Part shown: piece after piece, positions 18,049-34,320 of the stretch
Position numbering within the stretch: position 1 is the first letter of the stretch
How the letters are laid out: every line of letters begins with the position of its first letter
IMG/VR virus record: IMGVR_UViG_3300046373_000072
Span: 1-49,711 of that record
Source of the DNA: a virus
Reading direction: 5' to 3' (one strand)
DNA: 49,711 nt
The notes under the pieces: generated by a model
The model's input: only the letters and a program-made list of their open reading frames with translations
Database searches by the model: none
Told to the model about the DNA's origin: nothing
Translations under genes and position numbers: made by a program

Positions 18049-19263
18049 ATGACAGCACCGATTCCGAATGTAGATAATACAACTCTAAATAATCTAATCC
18101 CGAATCTTGACATTGGGGATGTGGCTGACCCTGCTCTGCGTCTAGCGGCGTTTCAGTATATTTACACCGAAGTGCAAACGATTATAACGGCTTATAATGC
18201 GTTTGTAGCGAACGGAGGCATAGCAACCTCCAACCTGGCAGACTTGTCCGTTACGACCGCTAAACTCGCTTTATTAAGCGTTACAGCTGCGCAGATTGCG
18301 AATGCTACCATAACTGCTGCACAAATCGCAAACGGTACTATTACCTCTACGCAGATCGGGCTATTGGGCGTAGCAAATGCAAATCTTGCAACAGGTATAG
18401 ATCCGACAAAACTAGCGGATGGTTCAGTTAACGCTACTGAATTCCAGTACATCAACAGCTTGACGAGCAATGCTCAAAATCAATTAGACGCGAAGATTCC
18501 ATTAACACAAAGAGCGGCAGCAAACGGTGTGGCCACATTGGACTCAGGTGCTAAAATTCCTATTTCCCAACTACCCGATTCCATTGTGGGTCAATTAGAA
18601 TATCAAGGAACATGGAACGCCTCAACAAACACCCCAACACTTGCTGCACCTTCGACAGTAAAAGGTTATTACTATGTGGTCAGCGTGGCAGGAACGTATT
18701 TGTCTATCCCTTACGCAGTAGGAGATTGGATCGTATCCAATGGAACAACTTGGGATAAAGTAGACAACACTGATGCTGTGACAACGGTATTCGGCAGATT
18801 GGGGGCAATTGTCCCAAATGCAAACGATTATACTTGGGCGCAAATTGATAAAACAGTAAGCAGCTTTGCAGACATTACCACCAGATCAGCAAGCGACATA
18901 AACACAGGAACGCTTCCTGTGTCGCAAATTCCCACGGGTATTCCTGCATCCTCCATTGGAAGCGGTAGCGTGGACAATCCACACTATGCTTACTTGGCAA
19001 GTTTAACAAGCGATCCACAAGTTCAACTGAACAATAAGGCTCCCTTATCTCACGTTGGCGCAGGAGGATCTTCACAGCATCCGGACGCTACACCTTCGCA
19101 GTCAGGATTCATTAGCGCGGCGGACTTAATCGCATTCAGGGCTTTAACGCCAACAGGTTTAGGTACTTACGCCATTCCAGTAGGGCAAATTCTTAGCTTT
19201 TGGGGCAGATATTCCATAGAGCAAGATGCGACAACTGGCGAGATGGTCATATATGAGATATAG
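18049..19263 (+). CDS. Tail fibre protein
   Basis: 404 aa after AGAGGAGG. The middle (about 65-140) has imperfect repeats (TTAKLALLSVTAAQIAN, ATITAAQIAN, GTITSTQIG), a pattern of trimeric fibre shafts. Next come DAKIPLTQRAAANGVATLDSG and the phage-fibre motif WAQIDKTVSSFADITTRSA. Likely receptor-binding, at the tail tip. Confidence 0.8.
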   Translation: MTAPIPNVDNTTLNNLIPNLDIGDVADPALRLAAFQYIYTEVQTIITAYNAFVANGGIATSNLADLSVTTAKLALLSVTAAQIANATITAAQIANGTITSTQIGLLGVANANLATGIDPTKLADGSVNATEFQYINSLTSNAQNQLDAKIPLTQRAAANGVATLDSGAKIPISQLPDSIVGQLEYQGTWNASTNTPTLAAPSTVKGYYYVVSVAGTYLSIPYAVGDWIVSNGTTWDKVDNTDAVTTVFGRLGAIVPNANDYTWAQIDKTVSSFADITTRSASDINTGTLPVSQIPTGIPASSIGSGSVDNPHYAYLASLTSDPQVQLNNKAPLSHVGAGGSSQHPDATPSQSGFISAADLIAFRALTPTGLGTYAIPVGQILSFWGRYSIEQDATTGEMVIYEI

Positions 19264-29560: not shown

Positions 29561-29598
29561 AAAAAGAAGTGGATCCTGCTTATGTGGGGTCCACTTCT
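29561..29598 (-). terminator. Terminator of the integrase gene
   Basis: On the minus strand AGAAGTGGA and TCCACTTCT pair perfectly over 9 bases, followed by TTTTTATC. The left arm overlaps the last codons of the integrase. Confidence 0.8.
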
Positions 29599-31007
29599 AA
29601 TATGCTCCATGTCATTTCCTTCTTGATCACGATTCGCTTGAAAAATGACTGGACCACAAATTTTCGATCTTGGTTGTTCATATGCTCCCAGTCTGTTTTT
29701 AATCGTCTTACAAAATCAATGATTTCATCCGGTGAGTGAGTGACCGCCACTTCCTGAGGTTCGAGTATATTCATCTCCTCACGCAGCTTAGAAAGGTTCT
29801 GATTGATCTTTTCTACACTTTCCTTATATTCCTCTCTTGTGATAACTCTGTCGCCTAGATCGTCCAGCAAGTTGTTCTTACGCTTATCCAGTTTATTTAC
29901 TTCACGAGTGATCCTGGATTTCTCTTTTTCGAATGATCTAATTTCATCCGGTGTAGGTTCAGGTATATAATTTGTCCCATATATTTCTTCCTTGTCAAAG
30001 TAATCAAAAAATAATTTTTCTAATTTTAACTCAGCTATATCCGAAGCTTTGCATATTCCGGCTTTACGGTTCGCACAACGGTAATTCGTATATGCCTTTG
30101 CATCGCTTCTTCGTCTGACTTTGTTATAGGCGTTGTAGGAGCCCCCACAAGCCCCACATTTGATTATCGTGCTGAAAGGGTAGTTGTAACTGCTTCTGGA
30201 CATTTCGCCGCTACACCGCCGTTTCAATTGCGTCTGAGCCAACAAAAATAATTCTTCCGTTATGATTCCAACATGTTCGCCGTCGTTGATTACCGCTTGA
30301 CCATTTCTGGGTGTCCATGAGTTCTTGCCGATATAGGTTATGTTTTTTAATATCCCCTTGATCGTGACCGGCTGCCATGATGTTTTTTTAGCCGGAATGG
30401 ATTCTGAGTTAAGAGCGGCCGCAATTCGTCCGTAACCCCAGCCTTTGAACACGTAGTATTCGAAGATCCGATGTACAATTGGAGATTCATTTTCATTCGG
30501 TTCCAATTTACCATTAACCTTATCGTATCCGTATATAGCCCCCAGACTCACTCTAAACCCTTTCTGAGCTTTCTTCTCCTGACCGAAGGTTACACGTTCC
30601 CCAATCAATTCACGCTCGTTCTGGGCGTTTGCAAGGCTTACTGTGAACATCCATCTCCCTTGAGCTGTGGTGAGGTCATGGCGCTCTGTAATCGTGGCAA
30701 AGGACACCCCATATTTGTTGAATATCTCATCGACCATTTCTAAACCGTCCCTGGCTTTGCGTGTTAGCCGGTCTAGTCTCCAAAGCACAATAATTTCTAT
30801 CCGCTTATTCCGGATATCGTCGAGCATATCTTGAAGGGCGGGTCTATTCATGTTTTTAGCTGAGTATCCATCGTCGATATACACTTTGAATAGCTCGTGG
30901 TTAAAACTTTTGATGTAGCTCATGCAGGATTCTTGTTGTGCTTCTAGGGAAAAACCATGCTTGGCTTGTTCGTCGGTGCTAACTCTAACGTAAATTGCTG
31001 CCTTCAT
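29580..31007 (-). CDS. int: Large serine integrase
   Basis: 475 aa after AGGAGG. Resolvase domain with the active Ser in YVRVSTDEQ (about residue 10), LWRLDRLTRKARDG and SLANAQNERELIGERV. Then the recombinase domain (YGYDKVNGKLEPN, WGYGRIAAALNSE), a zinc ribbon (CGACGG...CANRKAGIC) and a C-terminal coiled coil. These enzymes join attP and attB without needing a tRNA end. Expected to insert the phage into the host chromosome. Transcribed toward the tRNA gene and away from the lysogeny region. Confidence 0.93.
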   Translation of the reverse strand: MKAAIYVRVSTDEQAKHGFSLEAQQESCMSYIKSFNHELFKVYIDDGYSAKNMNRPALQDMLDDIRNKRIEIIVLWRLDRLTRKARDGLEMVDEIFNKYGVSFATITERHDLTTAQGRWMFTVSLANAQNERELIGERVTFGQEKKAQKGFRVSLGAIYGYDKVNGKLEPNENESPIVHRIFEYYVFKGWGYGRIAAALNSESIPAKKTSWQPVTIKGILKNITYIGKNSWTPRNGQAVINDGEHVGIITEELFLLAQTQLKRRCSGEMSRSSYNYPFSTIIKCGACGGSYNAYNKVRRRSDAKAYTNYRCANRKAGICKASDIAELKLEKLFFDYFDKEEIYGTNYIPEPTPDEIRSFEKEKSRITREVNKLDKRKNNLLDDLGDRVITREEYKESVEKINQNLSKLREEMNILEPQEVAVTHSPDEIIDFVRRLKTDWEHMNNQDRKFVVQSFFKRIVIKKEMTWSILEVDPT

Positions 31008-31049: not shown

Positions 31050-31790
31050 TTATTTCAACGAGTCTGCTATTGAATTATTATAACTCACCTTTAATCCATC
31101 CATTAACGTTAAGGCTTTGTTGTGACTGTCTTGGTTCTTTTTAGCATAATCTGCATATGATTGATTATAAATATCAGGTCCGTAATTGTATTCGTATTTT
31201 GCCATTTTCCAAGCCGTTAAATCGATATAAGCATCTTTTAGTCCTGCGAAAATAACTTCCAAGGATTTTATGCCATTATAAGCTACATAACTATCACTTA
31301 TACTTACTTTCAGTCGAATATCATTATATTTGTTGTTTGATTCATCTAGTTTTGCTTGTGTCTTGTTGTATTCTTGCTCCAATATCGAATAATCATTTGC
31401 GCTGAATCCTTTTTCGTTCTGAGTACGATAATAATTATCCATAATTGAGCCGAATGTGCTTATGTATCTAGTGGCATCTTGAAGATAAACAAAATAATCG
31501 GAAGCAATAATATATTGCCTTACATCTGTTTTTTCATTCGGAAGGGAAACTTGCACCGAATAATCGTTTTGGTCCCATGTTACGTTTAAACCTATTTTTT
31601 TTAGCATATAAATTGGAACCATGGTGCGATCCTCATAAACAATGGCTGGTGTATCCTCTACAGCAAGAACTTGACCGTTAGATTTAAGTTTTACAATCGG
31701 ATTCCCTTTGTAATCCCCATTAATACTTGACGCGCTGACCACTCCTGCAAATAACAAAAACATAACTGTTACCAATAGAATCTTCTTCAT
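31050..31790 (-). CDS. Secreted protein with copper amine oxidase N-like domain
   Basis: 246 aa after AGGTGA. Signal peptide MKKILLVTVMFLLFAGVVSA. Residues 30-95 match the copper amine oxidase N-terminal (stalk) repeat pattern (VKLKSNGQVLAVEDTPAIVYEDRTMVPI, then VTWDQNDYSVQV), very common in secreted Paenibacillaceae proteins. The rest is a helical region without known motif. It lies in the lysogeny region with its own promoter and terminator, so it is probably a lysogenic conversion gene. Confidence 0.75.
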   Translation of the reverse strand: MKKILLVTVMFLLFAGVVSASSINGDYKGNPIVKLKSNGQVLAVEDTPAIVYEDRTMVPIYMLKKIGLNVTWDQNDYSVQVSLPNEKTDVRQYIIASDYFVYLQDATRYISTFGSIMDNYYRTQNEKGFSANDYSILEQEYNKTQAKLDESNNKYNDIRLKVSISDSYVAYNGIKSLEVIFAGLKDAYIDLTAWKMAKYEYNYGPDIYNQSYADYAKKNQDSHNKALTLMDGLKVSYNNSIADSLK

Positions 31791-31847
31791 AGTTCACCTG
31801 TGTTTGTTCTCCATCGGTTGGAGGATTGGCTGTAATTCTGTATGTAA

Positions 31848-31853
31848 ATTATA
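31848..31853 (-). promoter_or_regulatory. Possible -10 of the secreted protein gene
   Basis: TATAAT on the minus strand, about 60 bases before the start. No good -35 was found. Confidence 0.4.
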
Positions 31854-31998
31854 TCGTCGAATCCTGTAAAGAAATACAGTGAAATTTTATATCCGACTAA
31901 AGTCCCGATATTGATTACATATATTAGTTTATAAATGAAATCGTTTGCAATTTTAGTAGTCGCTTAGATTCATTTGTGTTTTTTATACGACGAGAGTA

Positions 31999-32026
31999 TT
32001 GATATATTCAAACGATTTGGTATACT
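31999..32026 (+). promoter_or_regulatory. Promoter of the c-di-GMP riboswitch transcript
   Basis: -35 TTGATA (31999-32004), 16-base spacer, -10 TATACT (32021-32026) with a TG extension. Transcription would start near 32034, about 50 bases before the aptamer. This is the only strong feature of the gene-free 31860-32080 stretch. Confidence 0.7.
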
Positions 32027-32084
32027 CAATCCAATAGTCTCCATACCCACAAATAAGTATTTTGAAACACGAATGCTGTAAATG

Positions 32085-32168
32085 AATATTGGCAACCCTT
32101 TCGAAAGATTGGAAACGCAAAGCTGTAGGACCTAAAGCGTAATGCTATGGTAGCCAGTTGTAACCGGA
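32085..32168 (+). ncRNA. Cyclic di-GMP-I (GEMM) riboswitch aptamer
   Basis: The conserved blocks of the GEMM-I aptamer occur in order: GGCAACCC, TTTCGAAAGATT (P2-type stem with the GAAA tetraloop), GGAAACGCAAAGC, GGACCTAA (tetraloop-receptor region), ATGGTAGCC and GTTGTAACC. An intrinsic terminator follows after 4 bases, giving the standard expression platform. Known function of the family: binding of c-di-GMP alters transcription termination. No plus-strand gene follows for over 400 bases, see the finding. Confidence 0.9.
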
Positions 32169-32172
32169 CGAG

Positions 32173-32199
32173 CTGCTTGATTATCCAGGCAGTTTTTTT
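32173..32199 (+). terminator. Riboswitch terminator
   Basis: CTGCTTG-ATTATC-CAGGCAG (one G-T) followed by seven T. Expression platform of the riboswitch. Confidence 0.9.
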
Positions 32200-32228
32200 G
32201 TCTCCAAATATGGGTATACATCAAGATC

Positions 32229-32257
32229 GGCAACCTAGAGAAGGGAACAGGTTGCAA
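32229..32257. terminator. Second hairpin downstream of the riboswitch
   Basis: GCAACCT..AGGTTGC, a perfect 7-bp stem with a 13-base loop, followed by AAATTTT on the plus strand. May back up the riboswitch terminator or end the minus-strand HTH transcript. A palindrome GAGTAAAATTACTC (32306-32319) lies at the stop of that gene. Confidence 0.45.
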
Positions 32258-32311
32258 ATTTTGACAACTAGGTTTACACAAGCGTAAAGATTTATCCGAG
32301 GGAGAGTAAAA

Positions 32312-32527
32312 TTACTCATCCTTCTGCCACTCGTATAAATCATCAATAGGTATGCTTAAAGCTTCAGCGATGATCTTAGCGTTTTCCAACGACATTATAC
32401 GGCGTTTAGTTACGTAATGGGAAATTGTCGATTCAGACATTCCAACCATTAATGCAAAATCTATCTGTGACAATCTCGCTTCATTAAGTAAATCTGACAG
32501 AAGGCATCTCCCTATTCGGAGAGCCAA
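32312..32527 (-). CDS. Small XRE helix-turn-helix protein
   Basis: 71 aa from TTG 32527 (AAAGGAG 7 bases upstream); a longer start at 32560 would place the start inside the SOS box. XRE pattern: LSQIDFALMVGMSESTISHYVTKRRIM, then NAKIIAEALSIPIDDLYEW. Probable second repressor or immunity regulator. The riboswitch readthrough transcript would be antisense to the whole gene. Confidence 0.75.
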   Translation of the reverse strand: MALRIGRCLLSDLLNEARLSQIDFALMVGMSESTISHYVTKRRIMSLENAKIIAEALSIPIDDLYEWQKDE

Positions 32528-32553
32528 CGAATCACTCCTTTTATTAAAATAAA

Positions 32554-32584
32554 CGAACACACGTTCTATAAAATATGCTATTAT
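32554..32584 (+). promoter_or_regulatory. SOS (LexA) box overlapping a divergent promoter
   Basis: CGAACACACGTTCT (32554-32567) matches the Bacillus LexA box CGAACRNRYGTTYG at 13 of 14 positions. TGCTATTAT (32576-32584) is an extended -10 on the plus strand for the 53-aa gene. The box covers the -35 region, a repressing position; the minus-strand HTH gene starts on the other side. Confidence 0.7.
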
Positions 32585-32614
32585 GATTCTACTACATGTG
32601 ATCGGTGGTGCTTT

Positions 32615-32776
32615 ATGGAAAAAGACGTGTTGGAGTTAACGAGAGAAAATCTTGAAAGATTGGGTCTTGATGTTAATTACTTAATATCTCGAATCGATAG
32701 TTGTGAATTTCAATATTTGAGTCCTGATATTATTAATGCTTATCTTTACCTGAAAGAGACTGTTCTTTCTTCATAG
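32615..32776 (+). CDS. Small protein behind an SOS-type promoter
   Basis: 53 aa after GGTGGTG. Helical and acidic (DVLELTRENLERLGLDVNYL, LSPDIINAYLYLKETVL). No recognised family. Its 3' end overlaps the converging CI-like repressor gene by 44 bases. A small protein under LexA control next to the repressor could be an SOS-induced antirepressor; unproven. Confidence 0.65.
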   Translation: MEKDVLELTRENLERLGLDVNYLISRIDSCEFQYLSPDIINAYLYLKETVLSS

Positions 32777-33155
32777 CTCTTTCCGCGCGAATGAAAGCAA
32801 TGAATCTTCTCGTGTCGTCTCTAGATAGTTCCTTTCCATCGATTACCATAGTTATACGATCCATAATTTCATCGTCAGTCAAATTGAGTTCCAGGTATTC
32901 TTTCATTTTGTCTACTGCATCTTTTGGTTTTTCATCATTGTTTTCTAAATGACCGGCAAACTCCATTAATTCTTCGTAAGGAAACTTCAACGCTTCTGCT
33001 ATTTTTTTAATATTTTCTGGCTTTGGTGGATTTCTTTCTCCAGACTCATACCTTGAAATAGAAGCTGAACTTATTCCCGAATACATTGCAAGTTGATTAA
33101 TTGTCATTCCCCTTGATTCTCTAATCCTTTTCAAACTTTCACCGAAAGATTTCAC
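32733..33155 (-). CDS. CI-like XRE repressor
   Basis: 140 aa from GTG 33155 (AAGGAGG 6 bases upstream). XRE domain at residues 3-60: LKRIRESRGMTINQLAMYSGISSASISRYESGERNPPKPENIKKIAEAL. The C-terminal half is charged helix without the LexA-type peptidase. So it is probably not cleaved by RecA and needs an antirepressor for induction. Divergent from the Cro-like gene, with repeated operators between. Confidence 0.85.
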   Translation of the reverse strand: MKSFGESLKRIRESRGMTINQLAMYSGISSASISRYESGERNPPKPENIKKIAEALKFPYEELMEFAGHLENNDEKPKDAVDKMKEYLELNLTDDEIMDRITMVIDGKELSRDDTRRFIAFIRAERAMKKEQSLSGKDKH

Positions 33156-33192
33156 GTTGCACACCTCCTTCATTCATATTTAATCACTAGTA

Positions 33193-33293
33193 TTGACAAT
33201 AGACAATAAAAGACGAATTTTTGTTGACAAAAAGTGTTGACAAAAGGTTTTTATGTATGTTAGTCTATTGACATAAGGTAATGACAAAAGGTA
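33193..33293. promoter_or_regulatory. Operator cluster of the CI/Cro switch
   Basis: TTGACAAAAGGT-like direct repeats start at about 33193, 33224, 33237, 33268 and 33281 (variants TTGACAATAGAC, TTGACAAAAAGT, TTGACATAAGGT, ATGACAAAAGGT). Another copy lies at 33522, near the end of the Cro-like gene. They include natural -35 sequences, so repressor binding would block transcription. The exact -10 boxes are uncertain. Confidence 0.65.
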
Positions 33294-33307
33294 ACGGAGG
33301 TGATGAT

Positions 33308-33556
33308 ATGAAGCCAAAAGTAGATATCGATTTCATCAGGAGTTTTATGAGAGTAAAGGGATTGGGAGAAAGCGAGTTTGCTCACAAAATCGGTATCTCT
33401 CATAGTATGCTCAATAGAGTTCTAAACGGTAAGCGATATGCAGGTAACAAAGTAATTTTCGGTATGCTTGCCGCATTTAGTGATTTGAAAGTTGATCAGT
33501 TTTGTTCCTATGACAACATATTGACAAAAGGTAACAAAAAACAAAAAACAGCATGA
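33308..33556 (+). CDS. Cro-like helix-turn-helix protein
   Basis: 82 aa from ATG 33308 (GGAGGTGAT upstream). An upstream in-frame start at 33281 lies in an operator repeat and was rejected. Helix-turn-helix GESEFAHKIGISHSMLNRVLNGKR. First gene of the rightward early operon. Its own 3' end carries an operator copy. Confidence 0.8.
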   Translation: MKPKVDIDFIRSFMRVKGLGESEFAHKIGISHSMLNRVLNGKRYAGNKVIFGMLAAFSDLKVDQFCSYDNILTKGNKKQKTA

Positions 33557-33570
33557 AAGGATGATAACCA

Positions 33571-34320
33571 TTGAAACTCGTATTCATCGAAAATAGTCGC
33601 CTTGTAACAGACAGCGTGACGGTATCTGAAACATTTGGCAAACGTCACGCAGATGTATTAAGAAGCATTGAAAACCTTGAATGTAGCCAAGAATTCATTG
33701 AACGCAATTTTGCGTTGAATGAGTATCAGGATTCTATTGGCAGAAAACTACCAAAATACCTCATCACACAAGACGGCTTCTCATTCCTGGTAATGGGATA
33801 CACCGGCAAGGAAGCAGCTCGCTTCAAAGAAATGTACATCGGTGAATTTAACCGGATGCGTGAAGAACTCAACAAACCTCAATTTCAATTGCCTCAAACA
33901 TGGGCTGAAACACTTCGGTTGCTCGCTGATGAAATGGAATCCAATGCAATCATGGCAGCCGAGAAAGAAAAGCTTGCTATCGAAACTGCTGAACAAAAAC
34001 AAAAACTCAAAGAACAAGAGGCTCCAGTAGCCATTTACAACTTAGCCATATCTGCTCACAACTCAATGTCCATGCAAGAAGTCGCTAAGTCACTCGGAAC
34101 AGGCCGCACACGATTGTTTAACATCCTCAGGGAAGAAAAGGTCTTGATGAGAGGTTCTACAATGCCTTATCAACGCTTCCTGGATGCCGGCTACTTCAAA
34201 GTAACTGAACGCCCAAGGGCAAGCGGAGACACTATCATCAACGATCCAGCAACAAGGGTTACTGCAAAAGGCTTTGATTATATCGCAAGGATCATGCAAA
34301 AACGCGGTGTAACAGCATGA
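33571..34320 (+). CDS. Rha/KilAC-type antirepressor
   Basis: 249 aa with a TTG start after AAAGGATGAT. N-terminal Rha-type domain (VSETFGKRHADVLRSIENLE, YLITQDGFSFLVMGYTGKEAARFKEMYI), then a coiled linker. The C-terminal KilAC/ANT domain (NSMSMQEVAKSLGTGRTRLFNILREEKVLMR) follows. Such proteins in temperate phages antagonise the repressor or alter early gene control. Directly follows cro, the usual place. Confidence 0.88.
   Translation: MKLVFIENSRLVTDSVTVSETFGKRHADVLRSIENLECSQEFIERNFALNEYQDSIGRKLPKYLITQDGFSFLVMGYTGKEAARFKEMYIGEFNRMREELNKPQFQLPQTWAETLRLLADEMESNAIMAAEKEKLAIETAEQKQKLKEQEAPVAIYNLAISAHNSMSMQEVAKSLGTGRTRLFNILREEKVLMRGSTMPYQRFLDAGYFKVTERPRASGDTIINDPATRVTAKGFDYIARIMQKRGVTA

Follow-up and report, generated by a model that had tools for sequence, protein, structure and literature searches.

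The window, that is, the whole stretch of DNA analysed here, comprises the 49711 bases of an IMG/VR virus record. It probably represents a temperate phage with a host of the genus Paenibacillus; its antirepressor DNA is 71% identical to that of Paenibacillus larvae phages. On the left of the region considered are a serine integrase gene (29580-31007, minus strand) and a gene for a secreted Cu_amine_oxidN1-domain protein (31050-31790, minus strand), a protein that adjoins the lysogeny module in three phages (the window, L009 and L364). Next come, all on the plus strand, a promoter-like site recognised by consensus match only (TTGATA-16-TATACT, with TG before the -10; 31999-32026), a c-di-GMP-I (GEMM-I) aptamer identified as a covariance-model match to RF01051 (32081-32165), an intrinsic terminator that would serve as its expression platform (32170-32199), and a second hairpin, GCAACCT..AGGTTGC followed by AAATTTT (32230-32255), which is a possible weaker terminator. 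Facing these elements is the gene for XRE-A (32312-32527, minus strand), a 71-aa Cro/C1-type HTH regulator (HTH_3 match, E=4e-11) with a TTG start and AAGGAG, and a homologue of YopS of SPbeta/phi3T (36% identity). An inverted repeat, GAGTA-N4-TACTC (32304-32317), spans its stop codon; a GAGTA(G)..(C)TACTC repeat is found at the XRE-A stop in many relatives, with a variable loop and without a U-run.

A LexA/SOS-like box, CGAACACACGTTCT (32554-32567), lies between XRE-A and a small gene of 53 aa on the riboswitch strand (32615-32776, plus strand), as the initial annotation had it when it placed this gene behind an SOS box. The small gene overlaps the 3′ end of a CI-like HTH repressor gene of 146 aa (32733-33173, minus strand), and beyond it are a Cro-like HTH gene (33281-33556, plus strand, listed from its first ATG) and a Rha/KilAC antirepressor gene (33571-34320, plus strand). 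That is, the window has the order of a YopS-like module: XRE-A, LexA-like box, small gene overlapping the repressor, and cro. The identification of XRE-A as a SinR-like host biofilm regulator was considered and rejected here, as the gene sits in a virus record, near an integrase, a repressor, cro and an antirepressor.

The riboswitch and its predicted logic

The aptamer scores 48.5 bits against RF01051 (E=1.6e-6; gathering cut-off 35), and 57.2 bits with a covariance model of our own that was built including the window sequence. The terminator is strong (hairpin z = -3.8) and XRE-A is convergent, so the earlier observation of a GEMM-I aptamer and terminator pointing into the 3′ end of an XRE gene holds. 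The description of the aptamer as well-formed, however, is too strong: it passes the Rfam cut-off but departs from the consensus, with GGCAAC for GGCAAA and a U at the ligand-contact position C92. Among the residues contacting c-di-GMP, which we take from the Vc2 structure to be G20, A47 and C92, the first two positions are kept in the alignment and the third is U; a 2-nt shift would put a C there. The C92U change together with another core change may leave ligand binding weaker or altered. Combining G20A with C92U gives an aptamer that binds c-di-AMP (3MUV, PMC7288161). A U at C92 with G20 kept is seen both in the window (32081-32165) and in the phage locus L117 (4354-4438), and the two could be natural variants of ligand specificity. 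The low score (the lowest among the eight phages carrying GEMM-I in this module) and the changed conserved positions would suit a decaying riboswitch, acquired by mosaic exchange, that has lost control by c-di-GMP. Such decay seems improbable to us, given the strong terminator, the intact antiterminator pairing, the retention of the layout over large divergence, and the L117 aptamer, which has the same C92U yet reaches 73.9 bits.

The claim of a promoter before the aptamer fares less well: the site at 31999-32026 is consensus-like, but promoter-like sites are no commoner than in shuffled sequence (4 found versus 5.5 expected), and this one alone is no better than chance. The terminator, on the other hand, is the sole terminator-like site returned by a pattern scan of 31780-33320. 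The hairpin at 32230-32255 lies between it and XRE-A, is kept in the relatives L018 and L009, and could stop readthrough ahead of XRE-A; a case in which the response to c-di-GMP is masked by a second terminator is known from B. thuringiensis Bc1 (PMC11218506). This hairpin also bears on the idea that the product is a c-di-GMP-dependent small RNA (the leader of ~32033-32199, or a transcript ending at ~32265) acting on the XRE-A 3′ UTR or elsewhere. Its presence in close relatives without GEMM-I would agree with such an RNA, but the interval between terminator and hairpin is little conserved in more distant GEMM-I relatives, and we give the idea very little credence. The end of the aptamer is 147 nt from the stop codon of the convergent XRE-A, which corresponds to the position given for antisense-acting riboswitches in PMC9943018 (3′ end of the target, opposite strand, <500 nt). 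Between the GEMM-I terminator and XRE-A (32200-32310), where a short gene would have offered another account of the riboswitch according to the initial annotation, there is no ORF with a ribosome-binding site (RBS).

When the window RNA is folded up to the terminator loop, GGUAGC (the 3′ strand of aptamer P3) pairs with GCUGCU (the 5′ arm of the terminator), forming an antiterminator, and in the fold with the aptamer formed the terminator is left free. Folding predicts a similar mutually exclusive pairing with the aptamer core in L096 and L364, and in L117 and L021 the U-run comes straight after the closing P1 stem, which in L116 is predicted to cover an RBS; no clear antiterminator was found by folding in L370 or L003. 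The expression platforms thus folded look mostly like OFF switches, in which c-di-GMP would halt readthrough, the free-energy differences behind this assignment being small (1.5-7 kcal/mol) and the L021 fold being readable also as ON. In C. difficile, 11 of 12 c-di-GMP-I switches are OFF (PMC3649979).

Conservation of the layout and the place of the small gene

Relatives of XRE-A were sought in 105 genomes, then in 399 genomes of the order and then in viral contigs, with 137 + 38 non-redundant loci having usable flanks. In the scan of XRE-A loci, L021, L096 and L117 proved to have GEMM-I pointing at the 3′ end of XRE-A, and context-blind scans for just the GEMM core in viral contigs added L370 as a fifth identical case. 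The window and these four phages share the order GEMM-I, antisense XRE-A, LexA-like box, small gene, convergent repressor and cro, with XRE-A ~40-50% identical among them where aligned. GEMM-I was seen within 500 nt of XRE-A loci four times versus 0.1 expected, and 4 of the ~19 GEMM-bearing viral contigs from two context-blind pattern scans are in this module. XRE-A searches in additional genomes and viral contigs gave no further GEMM-I case; no close relatives were found with the window repressor as query, and the 421-bp riboswitch region as DNA query had one match, to just the aptamer core of an unrelated GEMM-I. Because exactly the same layout recurs in four divergent phages, it is probably a working means for the phage to sense what state its host is in. 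The shared geometry points to a regulated rightward RNA that would start opposite XRE-A, with antisense orientation relative to XRE-A and sense orientation relative to the small gene. The antisense control of XRE-A that the initial annotation proposed is therefore a serious mechanism, the arrangement being kept in four other divergent (pro)phages, although not every phage with this riboswitch has XRE-A in its path.

Three GEMM-I phages depart from the common order. In L003, XRE-A is absent from the stretch that separates GEMM-I from the LexA-box promoter and the small gene. In L364, XRE-A is replaced by a relative of the Cu_amine_oxidN1 protein, which GEMM-I readthrough would cross in antisense, and the overlap of the small gene is with an EF-hand-like gene, which precedes the repressor. 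L116, whose contig is also that of L361, has XRE-A and the small gene on either side of GEMM-I, the 3′ end of which extends into the small-gene RBS; the LexA box is upstream of XRE-A. The gene crossed in antisense is thus XRE-A in five of the eight phages and a secreted protein gene in one (L364), and there is none in two (L003 and L116). A same-strand small gene is present in 8/8 (its equivalents being found in L021, L096, L117, L370, L116, L003 and L364), with a LexA-like box near or upstream in each; it overlaps its convergent gene in all eight, and this is the repressor in seven. There is no sense gene between GEMM-I and XRE-A, but the weight that the initial annotation put on this is not supported: the constancy of the small gene makes a sense target, which the annotation set aside, at least as likely as antisense control.

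As L003, L116 and L364 show, the gene crossed need not be XRE-A, so the riboswitch may act chiefly on the small gene. In its extreme form, this would mean that the sense small gene, with the rightward operon, is what the riboswitch really controls, the antisense crossing of XRE-A being incidental. The contrast between a constant small gene and an exchangeable or missing antisense-crossed gene points that way, as does L116, where the P1 stem is predicted to cover the RBS of the small gene. In the window, however, ~415 nt and the second hairpin separate the terminator from the small gene, and the latter has a LexA-type promoter region of its own, which also counts against a reading with two joint outputs (below). 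The Spo0A boxes found at the same spot in XRE-A loci suit antisense control just as well, and on balance we think an incidental crossing rather unlikely.

Several other elements were noted in the course of these searches. In L360 and L366, GEMM-I is upstream of a small secreted protein gene, with a cell-wall-amidase-like gene further downstream, and may be a phage lysis-module riboswitch. A 237-kb viral contig carries a tandem pair of GEMM-I aptamers (L362, 2275-2462). Matches to the BsrG type I toxin-antitoxin RNA occur within a few kb of XRE-A loci (L069, 1613-1848; L071, 1277-1509; L091, 10-257), and Psychrobacillus phage PVJ1 (MZ983385.1) has an unannotated XRE-A homologue between repressor and integrase (18214-18405).

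Spo0A-type boxes beyond XRE-A and the proposed input port

Within 250 bp past the XRE-A stop, the most frequent 7-mer is TGTCGAA/TTCGACA. The exact box occurs in 58 of the 137 non-redundant regions (~42%) versus ~2.7% in flanking bins, and the held-out loci repeat this (16/38 versus 0-3 in other bins). Box-bearing loci include L118, L043, L116, and the yopS loci of phi3T (L222; TTCGACA lies 108 nt past the yopS stop) and SPbetaL3; the window has no exact 0A box (TGTCGAA) in these 250 bp, the box being a feature of its relatives. TGTCGAA is known as the Spo0A box. Spo0A boxes have a 10-bp tandem spacing, and 16 of the 47 loci with the box in TTCGACA orientation have another box-like site at a distance of exactly 10 bp. 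On the strand antisense to XRE-A, a -10 hexamer follows 36-41 bp on from the box (18 matches in the 47 loci), with a weaker peak at the same offset on the opposite strand (10 matches). An intrinsic terminator lies between the box and XRE-A in 8 of these loci, the other 39 having none. A role of TGTCGAA as XRE-A operator was considered and rejected, since there is no enrichment near the XRE-A start and the 10-bp tandem spacing fits Spo0A; the motif may still be bound by XRE-A or some other factor. Terminator-like signals within the antisense strand of XRE-A were likewise discarded, as coding constraints suffice to explain them (44 versus 44.5 +/- 5.8 in synonymous shuffles).

The boxes, the second box at 10 bp, the downstream -10 and the scarcity of terminators lend independent support to regulated rightward transcripts starting here. 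Given that Spo0A boxes beyond XRE-A are widespread, antisense transcription at XRE-A is probably not accidental, and the 39/47 loci without a terminator make regulated XRE-A antisense transcription look widespread. This could suggest that the readthrough RNA exists solely to silence XRE-A, as the convergence of GEMM-I with XRE-A in five phages and the precedent of antisense SAM and cobalamin riboswitches (PMC9943018) would also allow; but L003, L364 and L116 carry GEMM-I without XRE-A downstream, and we hold so exclusive a function to be unlikely.

The reading that we prefer, and to which we give about an even chance, is that of an OFF-riboswitch with two joint outputs, gating rightward RNA within the lysogeny-control region. 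At high c-di-GMP, the aptamer would fold and transcription would end at 32199, whereas at low c-di-GMP the P3 strand would pair with the terminator arm and the polymerase would continue. The readthrough RNA would be antisense to XRE-A, lowering XRE-A through RNA pairing or polymerase collision, and could continue into the LexA-controlled 53-aa gene, convergent with the repressor. Both outputs would point in the same direction and act together, such that low c-di-GMP would favour the small-gene side of the switch. This would probably mean induction if, as is assumed here, the small SOS gene opposes the repressor.

The spot beyond XRE-A looks, from its sequence features, like an input port for host-differentiation signals. 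Small LytTR-domain genes were also noticed near XRE-A (L018, 1961-2965; L019, 2003-2326; L020, 939-1322; L021, 745-1113; L370, 2892-3266, the last recognised by eye); they converge on XRE-A in four of the five loci, AgrB adjoins that of L018, and they are possibly a quorum-sensing input at the same spot. More generally, we tentatively propose, at somewhat short of even confidence, that in many temperate phages of spore-forming Bacilli the side facing a YopS-like regulator is a common input port, where an RNA running rightward, antisense for XRE-A but sense for the SOS-controlled small gene, would be switched by Spo0A (tandem 0A boxes, ~40%, including phi3T) or, in a minority, by a c-di-GMP OFF riboswitch. 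If so, the choice between lysis and lysogeny would be wired to the sporulation and biofilm state in spore-forming Bacilli, temperate phages would sense host c-di-GMP inside their lysogeny/lysis control region, and an RNA switch may act on both strands simultaneously. With Spo0A boxes in ~40% of related loci and in phi3T, the prophage response to sporulation and biofilm is testable in Bacillus subtilis by standard genetics.

Comparison with known systems

What appears to be new is that GEMM-I is located in a phage lysogeny module that is conserved and includes an SOS box, that the small gene is constant, and that Spo0A boxes occupy the same port; in the literature searched, mostly without subscription papers, we found no prior report either of such a riboswitch in this kind of module or of Spo0A boxes at this port. 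The layout itself, which the initial annotation had called unusual, is preceded by an antisense c-di-GMP-I/XRE pair in Paenibacillus. The XRE gene P40081_02330 of Paenibacillus sp. FSL P4 was reported in 2023 with a predicted antisense c-di-GMP-I riboswitch that, as here, faces the 3′ end of a gene for a small XRE regulator; in contrast to XRE-A, this gene is taken as a SinR-like host biofilm regulator, and the passage on it mentions no prophage, SOS box or small gene (PMC9943018). According to the same study, c-di-GMP riboswitches are the class most often found in antisense (152 versus 2554, p 4.6e-62). It also describes the SAM riboswitch of the C. acetobutylicum ubiG operon and the cobalamin riboswitch of Listeria pocR, in which, likewise, a terminator under ligand control governs transcription antisense to a convergent gene, the pocR target being a regulator, as XRE-A is; these cases differ in that host genes and no phage are involved, and no sense gene past the antisense target is described (PMC9943018).

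The annotation's remark that c-di-GMP-I aptamers are known in a clostridial phage agrees with the C. difficile prophage riboswitches Cdi1_4 and Cdi1_5 (phiCD119-like), which are phage-borne as in the window but, unlike the window aptamer, belong to the host-lysis module and are attributed to phage genes of that module instead of the repressor region (PMC3649979). In SPbeta, an SOS box lies between yopS and yopT (PMC8270828), and phi3T shares the Spo0A-type box beyond the yopS stop; both differ from the window in having no GEMM-I and in being arbitrium phages with an unrelated repressor, YopR (PMC8270828, PMC8612738). Finally, in phi29 a host differentiation signal, Spo0A, likewise sets the phage lifestyle, but this phage is virulent, Spo0A suspends its lytic development, and neither riboswitch nor lysogeny module is involved (Meijer 2005 via PMC9437464).
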